This document shows positions 32,234 to 38,632 of a stretch of DNA of 64,000 nucleotides, piece by piece. This DNA is from Lactiplantibacillus plajomi (GTDB lineage: Bacteria > Bacillota > Bacilli > Lactobacillales > Lactobacillaceae). The notes under the pieces are model-generated. The model saw nothing but the letters and a program-made list of their open reading frames with translations. It searched no databases and had not been told where the DNA came from. Position numbers and translations under genes: made by a program. The first letter of the stretch is position 1. Each line of letters begins with the position of its first letter. The stretch covers positions 62,001 through 126,000 of the forward strand of contig NZ_BJDZ01000005.1 in the NCBI RefSeq assembly GCF_005405405.1, given 5' to 3'.

Positions 32234-32755
32234 CTACGCCCGCGCCACCAAGTGACTGGCCGTCAGCCAACTCACAATGTGGCCCACAATTTCTTGCAGA
32301 CTTAGCTGATCAGTGTGAATCACCAAGTCGGCAGCGTTGGCGTATAAGGTTGCCCGTTGGCGCTTTAGCGTCATCAACGATTCCGTATTCAGGTCATTGA
32401 CTAGCGGGCGCGAACGGTCGTTTTGGACCCGTTCCAAAATGGTTTCACCCGTCGCGGCCAGCCAAATCACCGGCACCGGTGACCGTTTTAACACCGCGGC
32501 GTTGGCGGCAACCGTCGGCGTCCCCCCGCCGGTCGATAAGATGCCGGGCTGCTTAATGGCGTTGATCAAAGTCTGCTGTTCGAGTTGTCGAAAGTACGGT
32601 TCCCCGTAGTTGGCAAAAATCGTGGTGATTGGCGTTCCGGCACTTTCAACAATTAAGTCATCTAAATCCGCGTGCTGGGTCGCCAGCGTTTGTGCCAGTA
32701 ACCGTCCCACGGTCGTTTTTCCTGAACCCATGAATCCGATTAAAATTGCTTGCAT
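32234..32755 (-). CDS. aroK: Shikimate kinase
   Basis: 173-residue P-loop kinase that makes shikimate 3-phosphate. GFMGSGKTTVGRLLA (P-loop), DLDDLI (Mg-binding Asp), FRQLEQQTL, the GGGTPTV loop and RSRPLVND lid (Arg). Starts 2 bases after the tyrA stop, ATG 32755. Last gene of the operon. Confidence 0.94.
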   Translation of the reverse strand: MQAILIGFMGSGKTTVGRLLAQTLATQHADLDDLIVESAGTPITTIFANYGEPYFRQLEQQTLINAIKQPGILSTGGGTPTVAANAAVLKRSPVPVIWLAATGETILERVQNDRSRPLVNDLNTESLMTLKRQRATLYANAADLVIHTDQLSLQEIVGHIVSWLTASHLVARA

Positions 32756-32757
32756 AA

Positions 32758-33855
32758 CTAATTCCTCCTCACGATTTGGTAACCGGCAGTTTCGAGCACC
32801 CTCGCCGCTTGCGCTTGCGCTGCAGCATTGCCGAAGGTCAGTTGTAAGACCCCGTCGATATCCTCACGAATTTCTAAAATATGAATATTAACTAAACTGA
32901 TTTGAGCAGCTGCTAAGCGGTGGGTCACGTCAGCAAGCGCACCGACCCGGTCGGGCACGTTTAAAAATAGGTCGTAAAAATTAGGTAAACTCCCCAATTG
33001 TTCCGGTCCCAACTGGTCACGAGTAAGCTTGGCACGGTCAAAAAAATCTTTAAGGTTGGCGGTGTCGCCCACCGCAATCGCCCGTTTCACGCGGGTGAGC
33101 TCATCAATATAGGCCTGTAATCGGTGGGTTACGAGTTCGCCGTTGGTCCTAAGAATCGCCGTCCACATGGTCGGGTCAGAACTAGCAATCCGGGTAATGC
33201 TCTTAAACCCACCAGCAGCTAAGCGCAGGCCCAATGGTGAATCCGCCAAGGCCGCCTGGGTCTGGTTAACCAGGGCTGCGGCGACGACGTGCGGTAAGTG
33301 GCTTAGCTGGCCAACAATCCGGTCGTGCTGCGTGGCGGTGACCGTCAACCACTTCACGCGGGTCGCCCGCAATAACTTTTGTAAGCTGGTCACGGCACTG
33401 TCCGCCGTTAAGCCGGGAATCAGGAAGTAAAACGCGTTTTCAAATAAATCCGGCTTTCCGGCCGTCACCCCCGATTTATGCGAACCGGCCATCGGGTGAC
33501 CCCCAATAAAGGCAACCCCCTTGGACTGGAGTGGCTTAGCAGCGCGCATCACCGCTTGTTTCGTACTGCCGACGTCGGTCACCAGCACCCCGGCTTTTAA
33601 CGGTAACGCGGCCAACTGCGCGAGATCCGCGCAAATCACGCTGACCGGCGTGGCCAGGATAATAACGTCGGCCTGACCCGCTACTTCGGCCAAGGCTGGC
33701 GCCGTCTGATCAACGATGCCCCGTTGCTCGGCGTAACTGAGACTAGCTTGATCAGTATCCACCCCAACCACGGTCACCGCGGGTTCGGCTTGACGAATCG
33801 CCTGCGCTAGTGAACTGCCGATTAAACCGAGTCCCTTAATCAAAATCGTTGTCAT
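32758..33855 (-). CDS. tyrA: Prephenate dehydrogenase with C-terminal ACT domain
   Basis: 365-residue NAD(P)-dependent enzyme that converts prephenate to 4-hydroxyphenylpyruvate for tyrosine. Rossmann motif IKGLGLIGSSLAQAI, VGVDTD, GGHPMAGSHKSG (catalytic-type His), and HDRIVGQLSHLPHVVA; then an ACT domain (NVPDRVGALADVTHRLAAA) from about residue 285, expected to bind tyrosine for feedback. ATG 33855 overlaps the aroA stop by 4 bases. Confidence 0.94.
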   Translation of the reverse strand: MTTILIKGLGLIGSSLAQAIRQAEPAVTVVGVDTDQASLSYAEQRGIVDQTAPALAEVAGQADVIILATPVSVICADLAQLAALPLKAGVLVTDVGSTKQAVMRAAKPLQSKGVAFIGGHPMAGSHKSGVTAGKPDLFENAFYFLIPGLTADSAVTSLQKLLRATRVKWLTVTATQHDRIVGQLSHLPHVVAAALVNQTQAALADSPLGLRLAAGGFKSITRIASSDPTMWTAILRTNGELVTHRLQAYIDELTRVKRAIAVGDTANLKDFFDRAKLTRDQLGPEQLGSLPNFYDLFLNVPDRVGALADVTHRLAAAQISLVNIHILEIREDIDGVLQLTFGNAAAQAQAARVLETAGYQIVRRN

Positions 33856-35162
33856 GCCAACACCCCCGCGCCATTCCGCAACCGGTCCAAGTCCTGCCAA
33901 AACGTCGGGTAGGAAATCCCAATTGCCTTTTCGCCGGTCAGCGTGGTTGGTTGATCCAGCCGCTGCGTCGCAATTGCCATCATCATCCCGATCCGGTGAT
34001 CACCGTGACTAGCAAACGGCTGACCGGTCGGTTGCCAAGTTTGACGACCGTCAATGATAAAACCGTCCGTTTTTTCGGTGATTGCCACGCCGAGTTTTTT
34101 CAGCTCGGTCACAATCGTATTGATCCGGTCGGTTTCTTTGACCCGCAGTTCCTGCGCACCGCTGACCTCACTAATCCCATCGGCGGTGGCCGCCAGTAAC
34201 GCCACTAACGGTAACTCGTCAATGACGGCCGGAATGTCGGCTGCACCTAGTTGAATTGGCCGTAATTTGGCGAAGCGGACATCTAAGTCCCCGAGGGGTT
34301 CCCCTGGATTTTCCCGGGGCGTGACCGTCACGTGGCCGCCCATCCGTTGCAATACCGTTAAAATACCGGTCCGGGTCGGGTTTAACCCAACTTTTTCCAA
34401 ACGAACGTGTGAATTGGGCACGATGCTGGCCGCCGTTAAGAAAAAGGCCGCCGAAGAGACGTCACCCGGCACCGTTAACGTCTGACCACTCAACTGGTTG
34501 TTCGGATCCAACGTAATCGTTCGCCGGTCACGCGCCGTTGTGACCCGCCCCCCAAACGCGTTGATCAACCGTTCGGTGTGGTCGCGAGTCGGTAACTTTT
34601 CAATCACCGTAGTGGGTTGATCCGCGAACAGGCCCGCTAACAAGACCGCGCTTTTGACCTGCGCACTGGCCACCGCTAGTTGGACCGTCGCGGCGTGTAA
34701 CGGCTGACCGGTAATTTGCATCGGTAAGTGGCCGTCCGTCAGCTCGAGCTGCGCACCCAGTTGTGCCAAGGGCCGCTCAACCCGCGTCATTGGCCGTTGA
34801 CTGAGCGACGCGTCGCCAATCAAGGTGCTGTTGAACGGTTGACCGGCTAATAAGCCGGCTAACAAGCGGGTCGCCGTGCCGGCGTTACCCATGTCGAGTG
34901 GTTGGTCAGCCGCGTGTAAGCCGTGGCGACCATTGCCACGGACCGTCACCGTGTCCGCATCGCGCGCGATGTCGACACCTAACTGTTTAAGGGCGTTCAA
35001 CGTCGATAAGCAGTCGGCCGCGGTCAAAAAGTGGTGTAACACGGTGGTTCCGGTACTAATTGCACCAAGCATCAAGCCGCGGTGTGAAATACTTTTGTCT
35101 CCCGGAACGCGAATCGTTCCGTGAAGGCCGTTTGGACGGCCCGCTCCTAATTGCATTGTCAT
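33852..35162 (-). CDS. aroA: 3-phosphoshikimate 1-carboxyvinyltransferase (EPSP synthase)
   Basis: 436-residue enzyme that joins shikimate 3-phosphate and phosphoenolpyruvate. VPGDKSISHRGLMLGA, NAGTATRLLAGLLA, the SLSQRPMTR arginine loop, and ELRVKETDR are all present. I chose ATG 35162, with AGGTGA 6 bases upstream; a GTG at 35171 abuts the stop of the preceding gene and has no ribosome site of its own. Confidence 0.95.
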   Translation of the reverse strand: MTMQLGAGRPNGLHGTIRVPGDKSISHRGLMLGAISTGTTVLHHFLTAADCLSTLNALKQLGVDIARDADTVTVRGNGRHGLHAADQPLDMGNAGTATRLLAGLLAGQPFNSTLIGDASLSQRPMTRVERPLAQLGAQLELTDGHLPMQITGQPLHAATVQLAVASAQVKSAVLLAGLFADQPTTVIEKLPTRDHTERLINAFGGRVTTARDRRTITLDPNNQLSGQTLTVPGDVSSAAFFLTAASIVPNSHVRLEKVGLNPTRTGILTVLQRMGGHVTVTPRENPGEPLGDLDVRFAKLRPIQLGAADIPAVIDELPLVALLAATADGISEVSGAQELRVKETDRINTIVTELKKLGVAITEKTDGFIIDGRQTWQPTGQPFASHGDHRIGMMMAIATQRLDQPTTLTGEKAIGISYPTFWQDLDRLRNGAGVLA

Positions 35163-35171
35163 AAATATCAC

Positions 35172-35699
35172 CTAATTAATTTGATAAACGCACCACACCA
35201 TCTTGGGTGTCAGCCGTTTAATGATTTTTTCGTGCGGCGTTAAACGCACGTTTTTTTCGTTGGTTAAAACGTAACCGGCCCGATTTTCTTGGTAGGCGCG
35301 ATAAGCTAAGTACTTACTAGTTGCCGTCTGGACGGTCACCCCACTCACGATCCGTGCTAACAGTTGCGCTGTGGCCGCGTGGGTGTAACCGATGCGGTTG
35401 TCGGCGTCACAGCGTTGTACCACCACTAACGGGTCCAGCGCCGTCATGAAACAGTCGCGTAACGTCATTTGTTCTAACAAAGCGTAGTGCACATCGCCCC
35501 AACTTGCGTTTAGCGCGGACGATTTAAACGCCGCCGGTATCAATAATTGTTGTCCGCGGTACCCGTCCAAGTGGGTCAAAATCGTTTCAAAGCTCGGATG
35601 ACCCACGATGGTTAACTCGGTTTGCCGGTGGTTGCGCTGATAAATTTGAGCGGCGGCGTAACTATCGGTCATTGCTGGTCCTAACGTATGTAGTTCCAT
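35172..35699 (-). CDS. Prephenate dehydratase/BacA-like protein lacking the TRF motif
   Basis: 175-residue protein whose N-terminus LGPAMTDSYAAAQ resembles the LGPxGTxSxxAA start of prephenate dehydratase and of the prephenate decarboxylase BacA. Further matches are the SFETIL loop, an RCDADNRIGYTH segment, TATSKYLAY (the STSxA-like stretch), YVLTNEKNVR and the end KRLTPKMVWCVYQI. The dehydratase motif N-x-TRF is absent and there is no ACT domain, so it is nearer BacA than PheA. Placed between aroC and aroA, it may act on prephenate, but the reaction is an inference. ATG 35699. Confidence 0.65.
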   Translation of the reverse strand: MELHTLGPAMTDSYAAAQIYQRNHRQTELTIVGHPSFETILTHLDGYRGQQLLIPAAFKSSALNASWGDVHYALLEQMTLRDCFMTALDPLVVVQRCDADNRIGYTHAATAQLLARIVSGVTVQTATSKYLAYRAYQENRAGYVLTNEKNVRLTPHEKIIKRLTPKMVWCVYQIN

Positions 35700-35707
35700 T
35701 GGCCGAC

Positions 35708-36877
35708 CTAGTATTGCCGCAGCTCGTCACGGTACGTCGCCAGCTGTACCCGTAACCGGTCAAGGTTGCTACCATCAAACGTTGCGGTCAGTGCGCGGGC
35801 TAAGGTAATTGCAACGACGCTTTCCACCACGATCGAAGCCGGTACGATGGCGGTCGTGTCAGAACGTTCGACGCTAGCCTTCTGCTTAGCCTTAGTGGCA
35901 ACGTCCACACTTTGCAGCGGCTTGTAAAGGGTCGGAATCGGCTTCATCGCCGCCTTAACAATGATCGGCATGCCGTTCGTCATCCCGCCTTCAAAGCCGC
36001 CGAGGTGGTTACTGAGCCGGCGCCAGCCGTTTTCGGCATTCCAGTCAATTTCATCCATAACCCGACTACCGTAGTTGGCCGCCGCTCCGAAACCGTCACC
36101 GATTTCAACGCCCTTCATCGCGTTAACGCCCATCACCGCGGCCGCCAGCTGACCATCCAACTTGGTATCCCAGCTCGTGTAACTTCCCAGTCCGGCCGGA
36201 ACGTTTTCCGCGACCACCTTAATTACGCCGCCTAACGTATCGCCGGCCTTCTTCGTTGCCGTGATTAAGTCGTGCAGCTCGGTCACCTTCGACTGGTCGG
36301 TGATGCGCAAATCGTTGCGACTAATTTCCGTCGCCAGCGCGTCGACCGTTGTCACGGTCGAATCATCCGCAACCACCGCCCCGATTTGGTGCACGTAACC
36401 GATCAAGTGAATGTCCAACTGGGCCAACAGTTGCTTGCAGACCTGACCAATGGCGACCCGCATAGCAGTCTTGCGGGCCGACGACCGTTCTAAAACGTTG
36501 CGAAGGTCGCGGTGGCCGTACTTCATCCCTCCAACTAGGTCGGCGTGACCCGGTCGCGGCCGGGTCACTTGTCGCAGGGTGTTGGTAGCGGTGGCGGGGC
36601 TGGTCGGATTCATAATTTCGGACCAGTGGGCGTGGTCCCGATTTTGAATCGTTAACGCCAGTGGTGAACCAAGGGTAACGCCGTGCCGTAAACCACCGGT
36701 GACCACCACTTGGTCGTGTTCGATCTGCTGACGGTTACCGCGACCAAAACCACCTTGGCGGGCAGCTAACCCGGCGTTAATGGCGTCAATATTCAAAGTT
36801 AGTCCTGCCGGAATCCCGGTTAAAATTCCCGTTAATTGGGGGCCGTGGGATTCACCGGCCGTGACGTAGTTAATCAT
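35708..36877 (-). CDS. aroC: Chorismate synthase
   Basis: 389-residue FMN-dependent lyase that makes chorismate from EPSP. GESHGPQLTGILTGIPAGL, the RQGGFGRGNRQQIEHD segment, RPGHADLVGGMKYGHRDLRNVLERSSARKTA and NHLGGFEGGMTNG are family signatures. I set the start at ATG 36877; the frame is open for 68 more codons upstream, but that stretch overlaps the previous gene in another frame. AAAGGA lies 8 bases upstream. It overlaps the preceding stop by 8 bases, so translation is coupled. Confidence 0.95.
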   Translation of the reverse strand: MINYVTAGESHGPQLTGILTGIPAGLTLNIDAINAGLAARQGGFGRGNRQQIEHDQVVVTGGLRHGVTLGSPLALTIQNRDHAHWSEIMNPTSPATATNTLRQVTRPRPGHADLVGGMKYGHRDLRNVLERSSARKTAMRVAIGQVCKQLLAQLDIHLIGYVHQIGAVVADDSTVTTVDALATEISRNDLRITDQSKVTELHDLITATKKAGDTLGGVIKVVAENVPAGLGSYTSWDTKLDGQLAAAVMGVNAMKGVEIGDGFGAAANYGSRVMDEIDWNAENGWRRLSNHLGGFEGGMTNGMPIIVKAAMKPIPTLYKPLQSVDVATKAKQKASVERSDTTAIVPASIVVESVVAITLARALTATFDGSNLDRLRVQLATYRDELRQY

Positions 36878-38312
36878 GTTCTTCATCCTTTCGGTGTAAC
36901 TGGGCTTGGTAAGCCCGTGAATTTGCCATAATGGCTTGATAAATGGCTTGTAGGTACGGCGTATGGGCGCCCGTATGGCTCTGATCAGCCACCCGTTGTA
37001 ACACGACCGTTTCGCGATTTTGATCGAGGACCGGCAACTGTTCGGCCGCCTTGATCGCACCAATTGCCGTGACCGTATCAAAACGCTGGTTCAATAATTT
37101 AACGATGCGCGCGTCGATCTGATTGATTTGCTGTCGTTGACTCGTAAGTGACCGGGCCGGTTTCAACACCCAAGCGGTCAACGCGACTAACAGTAATCCA
37201 GCAGCACCAACGACTAGGTCAAAACGCATAGCGGCCGCGACACTTTGTTGTGACAGCCAGCCGGTGATCAGCGGGACCGTAAATGACGCAATGCTGCCGA
37301 ACGTGAAGTACACGCCGGTCACCCGCCCCTTAACGTGCGGATATAGCTTGATAAACAGGTTCAACCCGACTTGCATGATGCCCCCCGCAGCGGTAAAGCC
37401 AAACGCGAGTGCGCCGAGCATTGATAGCCAGGTCAACGGACTGTAACTAACCACGACTAATGCTAATAGCGACCCCGTATTCATGGCAACTAACAAGCGG
37501 GTTTCGCTAACGCCCCGGCGTAAAAGTAGAAAAATCACGCCGACGCCGCTGATCGAGCCAATACTGTAAAGTGACAGTAACAAATGGGCGACCACTTGGT
37601 TGAACTGGAACGTTTGACTAACGAAGAGGCTGATCCACTGAGTATAAAGAATCATGATGGCCATCGACGTGTAGCCGTAACCGGCCAACCCGACCGAGGC
37701 GATCAGCCGGCGCCGTTTGGATAACCGGTGGCTGGCCGCGGCCATCGTCGCGTCATCGTGGTTGCGGGCCGGAAACGTTTGGCGATTCAACAAAACAATG
37801 TTCACCAGTAAAATCGCTGCGGCAATCAGGAACGTCCAACCGTACCACCACCGTTGCGCATCGACCGTTGCGACCATTAGTGGTAACAAGAACTCGCCGA
37901 CTGAGACAAAGGCTTTTAGCAAGACGTTTGCCGAACCACGGTTACCCCCCATCTCGATGAAGGTCGTGTACGTGCCGGCATCTAACGCCGAATTGGCAAT
38001 TCCGGCAAGGATTGCCAGCCCGTATGCCAGTTGAATATTAGTGACAAACGCCATCCCAACGAAGAAAATCAGGTAACTCAGCATTCCTAGGTTAACGAAT
38101 AGTTTACGGCCAAAGCGGTCCGACAAACTCCCAAGTAAGAAGTACGCTAGCAAGCGACCAATCCCGACCCCCGACACCACGTAGGAAACCGTAGCAATTG
38201 GCGTTTGCCAATGGGTGCTTAACGCCTGCATATTTTGGGTGATGATGATCAGGCCCAGACCGTGAACGAAGTAGTTCAGGTACAGACTGACCGATAACGA
38301 TTTTCGGTTCAT
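36870..38312 (-). CDS. MFS transporter fused to a chorismate mutase domain
   Basis: 480 residues. Residues 1 to about 385 form a 12-helix major facilitator (GSLSDRFGRKLFVNLG is the loop 2-3 signature). From about 393 a soluble AroQ-type chorismate mutase follows: RQQINQIDARIVKLLNQRFD, then AIGAIKAAEQLPVLDQNRE with the family Arg, Lys, and R-E residues in place, and a YLQAIYQAIMANSRAYQ helix. The fused enzyme would turn chorismate into prephenate at the membrane; the transported substrate is unknown, plausibly an aromatic compound. ATG 38312 with AAAGGGGT upstream. First gene of the aro operon. Confidence 0.88.
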   Translation of the reverse strand: MNRKSLSVSLYLNYFVHGLGLIIITQNMQALSTHWQTPIATVSYVVSGVGIGRLLAYFLLGSLSDRFGRKLFVNLGMLSYLIFFVGMAFVTNIQLAYGLAILAGIANSALDAGTYTTFIEMGGNRGSANVLLKAFVSVGEFLLPLMVATVDAQRWWYGWTFLIAAAILLVNIVLLNRQTFPARNHDDATMAAASHRLSKRRRLIASVGLAGYGYTSMAIMILYTQWISLFVSQTFQFNQVVAHLLLSLYSIGSISGVGVIFLLLRRGVSETRLLVAMNTGSLLALVVVSYSPLTWLSMLGALAFGFTAAGGIMQVGLNLFIKLYPHVKGRVTGVYFTFGSIASFTVPLITGWLSQQSVAAAMRFDLVVGAAGLLLVALTAWVLKPARSLTSQRQQINQIDARIVKLLNQRFDTVTAIGAIKAAEQLPVLDQNRETVVLQRVADQSHTGAHTPYLQAIYQAIMANSRAYQAQLHRKDEEHD

Positions 38313-38343: not shown

Positions 38344-38381
38344 AAAAAAAGCCAGCTAGATTCTAAGAATCTAACTGGCTT
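38344..38381 (-). terminator. Leader terminator of the aro operon (attenuator)
   Basis: 14-bp stem AGCCAGTTAGATTC / GAATCTAGCTGGCT with a TTA loop, followed by a run of T, 31 bases before the first gene. Lies downstream of the promoter, so it must be passed for expression. Confidence 0.85.
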
Positions 38382-38410
38382 CTCATTAACCGTTCAGTTT
38401 AACAGTTATT

Positions 38411-38438
38411 CCAGCTAGACCCTTACGTGTCTAGCTGG
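38411..38438 (-). promoter_or_regulatory. Pre-terminator hairpin of the aro leader
   Basis: CCAGCTAGAC-N8-GTCTAGCTGG, a perfect 10-bp stem. Its downstream arm can pair instead with CCAGTTAGA of the terminator, which would form an antiterminator. Confidence 0.75.
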
Positions 38439-38511
38439 CTAAGACAAAAATGACTTCGCTAACCTTAGACACGGACGTGTGTGCCGCCCGCATCTAAGAT
38501 TGATACGGACG

Positions 38512-38568
38512 CTACCTAAAGTAAACCAAGCCGAAATAATACGCGTTAGTTGGGAGTAGCTGAGTCAT
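38512..38568 (-). CDS. Aromatic-rich leader peptide of the aro operon
   Basis: An 18-residue open frame, MTQLLPTNAYYFGLVYFR, then TAG, on the minus strand between a promoter and the attenuator hairpins. Five of the residues from 10 to 17 are Tyr or Phe (YYF at 10-12, YF at 16-17), the end products of the downstream pathway. ATG 38568 has AAAGGA 9 bases upstream. Stalling of a ribosome at these codons when Tyr- or Phe-tRNA is short would be the signal for read-through. The peptide itself is probably not functional. Confidence 0.82.
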   Translation of the reverse strand: MTQLLPTNAYYFGLVYFR

Positions 38569-38603
38569 AATTATCTTTCCTTTCCGTTTATGTGATTGAT
38601 TAT

Positions 38604-38632
38604 ATTAAAACACTCTCATTTTCGTTCGTCAA
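38604..38632 (-). promoter_or_regulatory. Promoter of the aro operon leader
   Basis: TTGACG (38627-38632), 17-base spacer, TTTAAT (38604-38609) on the minus strand; a TAATAT with 19-base spacing is an alternative. Confidence 0.65.

Follow-up and report, generated by a model that had tools for sequence, protein, structure and literature searches.

The leader-peptide attenuators of the enterobacterial trp, phe and his operons share a short open reading frame with many codons for the amino acid under control, alternative RNA helices, an intrinsic terminator and an arm just past the stop codon that is masked when the ribosome finishes. The trp leader is built from four arms and the his leader from six. 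In lactobacilli, control by amino acids is usually credited to T-boxes; the cited part of PMC3766115, in which 15 genomes were analysed, counts 291 of them in Lactobacillaceae. Firmicutes, too, have known or proposed leader-peptide attenuators: the passages cited here concern his attenuators in Bacillus, Peptostreptococcaceae and Erysipelotrichales (PMC2965389, PMC9413887), leu/ile attenuators in Staphylococcus aureus (PMC5794164), and a Leu/phe leader in Lactococcus lactis, RF01743 (PMC2864571). Their likeness to the leader examined here, with RF01743 judged by its name, lies in ribosome-read codon runs ahead of amino acid operons. RF01743 itself has no match at its cut-off in the window (the whole 64-kb stretch of Lactiplantibacillus plajomi DNA that was analysed) or in the 40 loci scanned.

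Two further described elements come close. The main text of PMC4448216, in the parts cited, calls the gbs2033 and gbs1262 elements before ABC transporter genes of Streptococcus agalactiae riboswitches, reports premature termination with short and long transcripts by RNA-seq, and describes the gbs2033 element as conserved in Lactobacillales and also present before the aroFBC-tyrA operon of E. faecium; the term 'leader peptide' is absent from that main text. There the element is read as ligand-sensing, whereas the present leader family is read as ribosome-sensing, and on the published description gbs2033 is likely a homologue of the family. The Rfam family RF02863 is filed as a small RNA gene. 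In other families its model has matches of full length at leaders of aro and transporter genes; a branched-chain leader gives 37 bits, below threshold. The model exceeds its cut-off of 61 bits in two of 11 genomes. It reaches the cut-off at leaders L066, L133 and L139 (scores of these relatives 67.3, 61.9 and 61.5 bits); the L. plajomi leader scores 16.6 bits, and its genome is without a match at E 0.1. Searches of the open-licence PMC library turned up no paper that describes the family as a leader-peptide attenuator.

A sequence-only reading of the window had proposed, on the minus strand in front of an aro operon, a promoter, a ribosome site, an 18-codon frame, a hairpin (38438-38411) and a terminator with a T run. 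A check of the sequence found every element at its place, and the eight codons among which five Tyr/Phe codons had been counted are codons 10-17 of the leader frame; the distance from the leader stop to the hairpin is 73 nt rather than 74. The elements of the leader are as follows.

38604..38632, minus strand: promoter TTGACG (38632-38627), 17-nt spacer, TTTAAT (38609-38604), read by eye from the sequence
38575..38585, minus strand: ribosome binding site GGAAAGGAAAG, from the sequence
38512..38568, minus strand: leader peptide reading frame MTQLLPTNAYYFGLVYFR, 18 codons, ATG at 38568, stop at 38514-38512; from the sequence, with related peptides in 34 leaders
38533..38541, minus strand: control codons Tyr10 Tyr11 Phe12; aromatic run conserved, and exchanged with gene function
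38518-38523, minus strand: second aromatic codon pair, Tyr16 Phe17
38525..38532, minus strand: arm 0 (GGCUUGGU), codons after the Tyr run, partner arm 3b; covariation (34 and 102 leaders), swap test 97/102
38502..38511, minus strand: arm 1 (CGUCCGUAUC), adjoining the stop codon, partner arm 2; covariation, swap test 101/102
38485..38498, minus strand: arm 2 (CUUAGAUGCGGGCG), partner arm 1 or arm 3; covariation
38464..38477, minus strand: arm 3 (CGUCCGUGUCUAAG), partner arm 2 or arm 4; covariation, swap tests
38452..38459, minus strand: arm 3b (GCGAAGUC), partner arm 0; covariation, swap test
38426..38438, minus strand: arm 4 (CCAGCUAGACACG), partner arm 3 or arm 5; covariation
38411..38420, minus strand: arm 5 (GUCUAGCUGG), partner arm 4 or arm 6; swap tests 4:5 and 5:6
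38388..38407, minus strand: small extra hairpin AACUGUU...AACGGUU between arms 5 and 6, from the predicted fold
38344..38380, minus strand: intrinsic terminator with arm 6 (38380-38367), loop, arm 7 (38363-38350) and U run to 38344; swap test 88/88

The promoter is missing from the program's promoter list because the scan accepts a second hexamer only if its position 2 is A; by eye, relatives carry a similar TTGAC..TGTTTTAAT promoter as well as AAAGGA-type ribosome sites. Judged by eye as well, the stretch of the small extra hairpin varies among them. Arms 2 and 3 form a 14-bp helix that includes the stem CTTAGA...TCTAAG, and the terminator, with a stem likewise of 14 bp (38380-38350) and a T run to 38344, ends the leader 31 nt ahead of the ATG of the first gene at 38312. 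In the arm 0 codons, GGC UUG GU pairs with arm 3b through five pairs, a mismatch and two pairs; this helix is short in the L. plajomi leader. On folding, the 247-nt leader is far more stable than 200 dinucleotide shuffles (z −8.7).

No Rfam family reaches its cut-off at the window, where there are sub-threshold matches only. Among these, the trpB motif (30.7 of 59 bits) extends over no more than the two terminal hairpins and was set aside. A T-box at the operon was rejected: RF00230 has no match there, and the sequence-only reading had seen none of the T-box core. T-boxes exert the amino acid-dependent control of termination that is proposed for this leader and are common in the same genome (33 candidates, 12 of them over the cut-off), while absent at the aro operon.

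The operon behind the leader runs from an MFS transporter–chorismate mutase fusion through aroC, a short prephenate dehydratase-like gene, aroA and tyrA to aroK, with Pfam support for all but the short protein.

36870..38312, minus strand: first gene of the operon, an MFS transporter–chorismate mutase fusion (Pfam MFS_1 and CM_2)
35708..36877, minus strand: chorismate synthase, aroC, start taken as the ATG of MINYVTAGE (Pfam Chorismate_synt)
35172..35699, minus strand: short prephenate dehydratase-like protein (AlphaFold model and structure matches)
33852-35171, minus strand: aroA (Pfam EPSP_synthase)
32758-33900, minus strand: tyrA, true start uncertain (Pfam PDH_N/PDH_C)
32234-32755, minus strand: aroK (Pfam SKI)

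In some relatives (e.g. L049) the MFS transporter and the chorismate mutase are separate genes.

A search with the first gene gave 38 loci, eight of them named records from Lactiplantibacillus, Bombilactobacillus, Liquorilactobacillus, Secundilactobacillus and Sporolactobacillus, and in all eight the peptide and its codons are kept before related MFS genes. The 34 distinct leaders of the first alignment (set A1) remain when the duplicates L011 and L019 are left out together with L030 and L039, in which no aromatic reading frame was recognised at that stage; L030 is part of the later set. Their peptide ends are mostly variants of AYYYGFAYFR-stop, and at some of the 34 loci chorismate mutase is absent from the first gene, which consists of the MFS part. 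The 34 leaders supplied a covariance model (R1). The second alignment (set A2) takes in 100 of 119 loci with an R1 match, in 102 rows since L098 and L103 match twice; 14 near-duplicates, L123, L124 and the overlapping loci L074, L056 and L092 were left out beforehand to stay within 100 sources. These 102 leaders yielded a broader model (R2).

The family is widespread in Lactobacillales. R1 matches 218 of 397 genomes of the taxonomic family, in 29 of 40 genera and sometimes in two or three copies; the 179 family genomes without an R1 match include two of the same genus. Within the order, 58 of 74 genera and 182 of 295 genomes have an R2 match. In the class sample, R1 finds 11 of 398 genomes including L. 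plajomi itself, two of them outside the order (G406 and G525). In the even sample of the phylum, R2 matches four of 398: L. plajomi, two of the same order and G888, whose weak match (G888:C2:350665-350781, E 5.8e-4) is the single one outside the class. L. plajomi also carries a second copy (L128, contig C10:18723-18871, leader MSLPLNHVKTSTSFYFWYFR) before an aminotransferase gene (Aminotran_1_2).

Counted from the leader stop there are seven arms, and neighbouring arms pair: 1:2, 2:3, 3:4, 4:5, 5:6 and, as the terminator, 6:7. Arms 2 to 6 have two partners each, both supported by the data, and covariation and swap tests alike point to mutually exclusive helices that end in either a terminator or an antiterminator. 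In the 34 leaders, 92.8% of the cells of 2:3 and 4:5 are paired and 16 of the 24 pairs show double changes; for 1:2 and 3:4 the values are 91.1% and 12 of 18. The 102 leaders extend this. Here 2:3 and 4:5, the helices to which the model fitted the alignment, are paired in 93.4% of cells; all 24 pairs show double changes, and the double-changed cells number 321 against 80 in shuffles (0 of 500 as high). For 1:2 and 3:4, which like 0:3b were not fitted, 89.7% of cells are paired and 236 are double-changed against 79 (again 0 of 500); the number of pairs with a double change exceeds the shuffles modestly, at 15 of 18 against 11.7, and nine of 500 shuffles reached 15. When the partner is shifted by one to three columns, pairing of 1:2, 2:3, 3:4 and 4:5 falls to 23-49%.

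The additional long-range helix joins the control-codon region to a segment between arms 3 and 4. The arm 0 codons, GGC UUU GCU in many relatives, pair with arm 3b in 89.1% of cells of the 34 leaders (18 double-changed cells against 5.5 in shuffles) and in 81.4% of the 102 (72 against 28); with slid partners, pairing drops to 34-51%. Pairs with any double change show no excess among the 102 leaders (5 against 5.7 in shuffles), and among the 34 they number 5 against 3.5, with 75 of 500 shuffles as high. By eye, L007 (Sporolactobacillus vineae) shows CGC paired with GCG, and L034 shows AAC paired with GUU.

Swap tests compared each native arm pair with the median of arms swapped in from dissimilar leaders. 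The native pair scored above the median swap for 0:3b in 97 of 102 leaders, for 1:2 in 101 of 102, for 2:3 in 100 of 102, for 3:4 in 91 of 100, for 4:5 in 96 of 100, for 5:6 in 73 of 86 and for 6:7 in 88 of 88, the smaller sets reflecting a missing arm or a low terminator score. A terminator-like hairpin is present in 99 of the 102 leaders, a few of them doubtful. Among 13 pairings outside the model, 11 were at chance, arm 0 with arm 2 among the pairings at that level. The two exceptions were arm 4 with arm 7, where the native pair beat 0.67 of swaps, as expected from the resemblance of arms 4 and 6, and arm 3b with arm 4 (0.62), which lie in one hairpin.

With these helices in place, the trp/phe-type layout named by the sequence-only reading becomes one of seven arms plus a long-range helix, rather than four arms. 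That reading had recognised that the downstream arm of the hairpin (arm 5) pairs with the upstream arm of the terminator, in line with the 5:6 swap test; it had missed the pairings of arm 1 with arm 2, arm 3 with arm 4 and arm 0 with arm 3b. The conservation check that it had suggested on related leaders came out in its favour, as peptide and aromatic codons are kept and changes in the stems compensate one another. Relative to the trp and his attenuators the leader is thus distinguished by seven arms and the arm 0/3b helix. The control-codon region here pairs with a segment beyond arm 3, and this helix probably takes the place of the one that, in the trp, phe and his attenuators, joins that region to the arm behind the stop codon; also unlike there, one scaffold is reused for Tyr/Phe, Phe, Tyr and Ile/Leu/Val.

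Positions relative to the reading frame were measured in 101 of the 102 leaders. Arm 1, by model column, starts within 0-2 nt of the leader stop in 97 of them, and the start of arm 2 lies 9 to 28 nt beyond the stop. Within the last 12 codons, 87 leaders have their first aromatic codon 21-27 nt ahead of the stop, and 93 have the last one two codons ahead of it. The downstream footprint of a ribosome is about 12-15 nt. With a ribosome on the first Tyr codons, arm 0 would accordingly be covered and arm 1 accessible; a ribosome at the stop codon would cover arm 1.

Sequence and comparison both place a short open reading frame with a ribosome site, predicted to be translated, ahead of the terminator. 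Peptide, codons, helices, the placing of arm 1 against the stop and the exchange of codons with gene function are observed by comparison of leaders; the helix order, the masking, the lock and the physiology proposed here are what we infer from them. Transcription of the leader by RNA polymerase and translation of the peptide by a ribosome would run side by side. When Tyr and Phe are plentiful, the ribosome would reach the stop and cover arm 1, whose first base follows the stop codon; 2:3, 4:5 and 6:7 would then form and transcription would end. When Tyr-tRNA or Phe-tRNA is short, the ribosome would be parked on the Tyr/Phe run, with arm 0 covered and arm 1 free. Arm 1 could then take arm 2, arm 3 would take arm 4 and arm 5 would take arm 6, so that the terminator is blocked and the aro operon transcribed. 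Without translation, arm 0 would pair with arm 3b. This helix can enclose either 1:2 or 2:3, while its coexistence with 3:4 needs a pseudoknot; it should therefore hinder 3:4 and favour 4:5 and termination. The three states combined would leave the genes on only with a ribosome standing on the control codons. The 0:3b helix would thus fill the role that helix 1:2 has in the trp leader.

Folding models lean the right way; they leave the relay order and the lock undecided and are not counted as support for that order. Equilibrium folding of 88 leaders just before arm 7 gave a weak difference, with a mean 5:6 pairing of 0.43 with a stalled ribosome, 0.31 with a ribosome at the stop and 0.17 without a ribosome. 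Between the stalled and the stop state, 5:6 is more than 0.1 higher in 29 leaders, lower in nine and about equal in 49, with one undefined; for the L. plajomi leader it is at most 0.04 in all three states. A home-made greedy co-transcriptional model, run at five settings on 87 leaders, gave the full three-state logic in 11, 11, 17, 13 and 1 of them, and predicted as against opposite switches in 16/9, 19/11, 21/8, 15/2 and 2/0. The L. plajomi leader gives the predicted outcome at two of the five settings.

The relation between the control codons and the downstream genes was followed in 199 leader–gene pairs (120 rows plus 79, near-identical relatives included; left out of the 79 were L167 twice, L213, L166 and the partial L171). 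The first genes were assigned to classes with blastp against 25 representatives, the majority of which were verified with Pfam or NCBIfam; those for chorismate mutase, aroA, aroK and aroC, like two others from different classes, take their names from a motif or from inspection by eye only. Across these pairs, the control codons match the amino acid that the downstream genes handle. All 57 MFS(–chorismate mutase) pairs have Tyr; one MFS leader (L030, ...HKYYRLADMN) has few aromatic codons. All nine prephenate dehydratase-like pairs have Phe and no Tyr in the last nine codons, some with Tyr further upstream. The six NhaC-type pairs, whose NCBIfam matches lie below the cut-off, all have four Tyr, and four of them lack Phe; the 73 pairs with TrpX-like transporters, also matched below the NCBIfam cut-off, include 24 without Tyr and four without Phe. 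An exception to strict codon specificity is provided by the pheA leaders of another family, which carry both Tyr and Phe, not Phe alone, in four of four cases. On one contig (G083:C66; L092 and L103), neighbouring TrpX-like genes follow a Tyr-only leader, NNTYYYGYYG, and then a Phe-only leader, NNSFFFGFFR, which predicts one Tyr-binding and one Phe-binding protein.

The exchange extends to another pathway. Seven pairs of the Liv type (defined by Pfam Peripla_BP_6), three with ilvA, three with a class IV aminotransferase (Pfam Aminotran_4, taken by us as a branched-chain enzyme) and two with acetolactate synthase (ilvB) have leaders with at least four Ile/Leu/Val codons and no Tyr, in 15 of 15 cases. 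Among the other 184 pairs, this codon type occurs in one only, before an Opp-type binding protein. The 0:3b helix is kept in 16 branched-chain leaders, where the native pair beats a mean 0.89 of swaps with aromatic leaders (set A4; four rows, L167 twice, L213 and the partial match in L171, gave no leader). In the same swaps 2:3 and 3:4 are at chance (0.51 each), arms 2 and 3 looking alike in the two sets, and the unmodelled 1:4 stands at 0.64. Of all the evidence, a scaffold that stays constant while its codons vary with the pathway speaks most strongly for a translating ribosome as the sensor. With the conserved peptide and codons and the compensating stems, it supports the sequence-only idea of stalling at Tyr/Phe codons, and stalling on the coded amino acids very probably controls termination, as judged from comparison of the leaders.

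A metabolite-binding riboswitch for aromatic amino acids, with the small reading frame incidental, would agree with the deep conservation of the structure, with its position upstream of aromatic transport and synthesis genes and with the short terminated and long transcripts that the cited part of PMC4448216 reports by RNA-seq for S. agalactiae. A ligand pocket, however, predicts neither a conserved peptide with Tyr/Phe codons, nor an arm 1 tied to the stop codon, nor a codon run that varies with gene function on one scaffold, and this explanation is considered very improbable. It is about as hard to see the leader peptide as an arrest peptide of the TnaC kind, sensing an aromatic amino acid inside the ribosome instead of stalling on hungry codons. 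The peptide ends are conserved in more than their aromatic residues, with a G or S inside and in many cases an R ahead of the stop, which such a peptide would account for; but the conserved GGC/AGC codon is the core of the arm 0 pairing, and the scaffold survives Ile/Leu/Val in place of all or nearly all aromatics, which a specific arrest peptide would hardly allow. Least credible is the free-standing small RNA implied by the Rfam name of RF02863, 'Enterococcus sRNA 2410'. That model overlaps leader matches in nine of ten genomes of other families, yet the inspected loci lie upstream of genes, mostly for amino acid transport or synthesis, with a reading frame and a terminator, and a terminated leader would itself look like a small RNA.

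A closer alternative is a leader-peptide attenuator with the same core and a simpler switch or no lock, in which 0:3b would be a secondary feature such as a pause signal for RNA polymerase; it does not exclude the preferred explanation. The helix is the least complete of those counted (81% of cells), its function is deduced from topology only, and no clean lock emerges from the folding models. Against this, 0:3b covaries, passes the swap test in nearly all of the 102 leaders and also holds in the branched-chain leaders, and 3:4 and 5:6 pass their swap tests too. This version is possible, though on the unlikely side. The preferred reading, with the whole wiring including the 0:3b lock, is held with fair rather than high confidence.

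According to that preferred reading, much of Lactobacillales would possess, beside its T-boxes, a codon-programmable attenuator scaffold that is on only with a parked ribosome. It would be set to Tyr plus Phe, Phe, Tyr or Ile/Leu/Val through a handful of exchanged codons, and its lock would be two-sided, with arm 0/3b acting against the absence of a ribosome and arm 1 against a finishing one; this picture is somewhat more likely than not. It would add a second RNA system of wide reach to the T-boxes of lactobacilli. If it is true, the orphan 'sRNA' RF02863 would be explained as an attenuator, and so, probably, would the orphan 'riboswitch' of PMC4448216, as far as its published description goes. 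The sensed amino acid could be read from few codons, and substrates could in this way be predicted for transporters and enzymes with poor annotation. The cases are Phe-only leaders for TrpX-like transporters and the unassigned short prephenate dehydratase-like protein, Tyr leaders for NhaC-type transporters and aromatic leaders for transketolase. The leader also offers a defined test of how far a ribosome footprint alone drives a multi-step RNA relay.

The short protein at 35172-35699 illustrates such a prediction. It has no Pfam match up to E 10, and among five relatives, two show a similarity to prephenate dehydratase (E 0.02-0.05) that falls short of the curated cut-off. Its AlphaFold model (pLDDT 94) has prephenate dehydratases as its best four matches among solved structures, at 10-14% identity and TM-scores below 0.5, with many binding-protein folds ranking close behind. 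Nine leaders directly before short prephenate dehydratase-like genes carry Phe-only runs. The fold similarity of the model and these leaders alike suggest the phenylalanine-specific step, and the protein is probably an enzyme of the phenylalanine branch.

Transketolase genes of two different families stand behind aromatic leaders (L096 and L127, YYYYWFFK and RYYYFGWFS; the latter gene named by similarity to that of L096), perhaps as a way of providing the aromatic pathway with erythrose 4-phosphate. Genes that are not obviously aromatic also follow aromatic leaders (L180, L184, L186, L094, L158, L187, L191 and L196); their products are a CitMHS-type transporter, a 2-hydroxyacid dehydrogenase, a PTS_EIIC_2 membrane protein and four uncharacterised secreted or sensor-like proteins, and they are candidates for new aromatic functions. 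Elsewhere in the window, a weak T-box match on the minus strand (2410-2592; 35.6 bits against a cut-off of 93) lies just upstream of a hisS-like reading frame (1073-2356, named by eye) and is probably a diverged His T-box.
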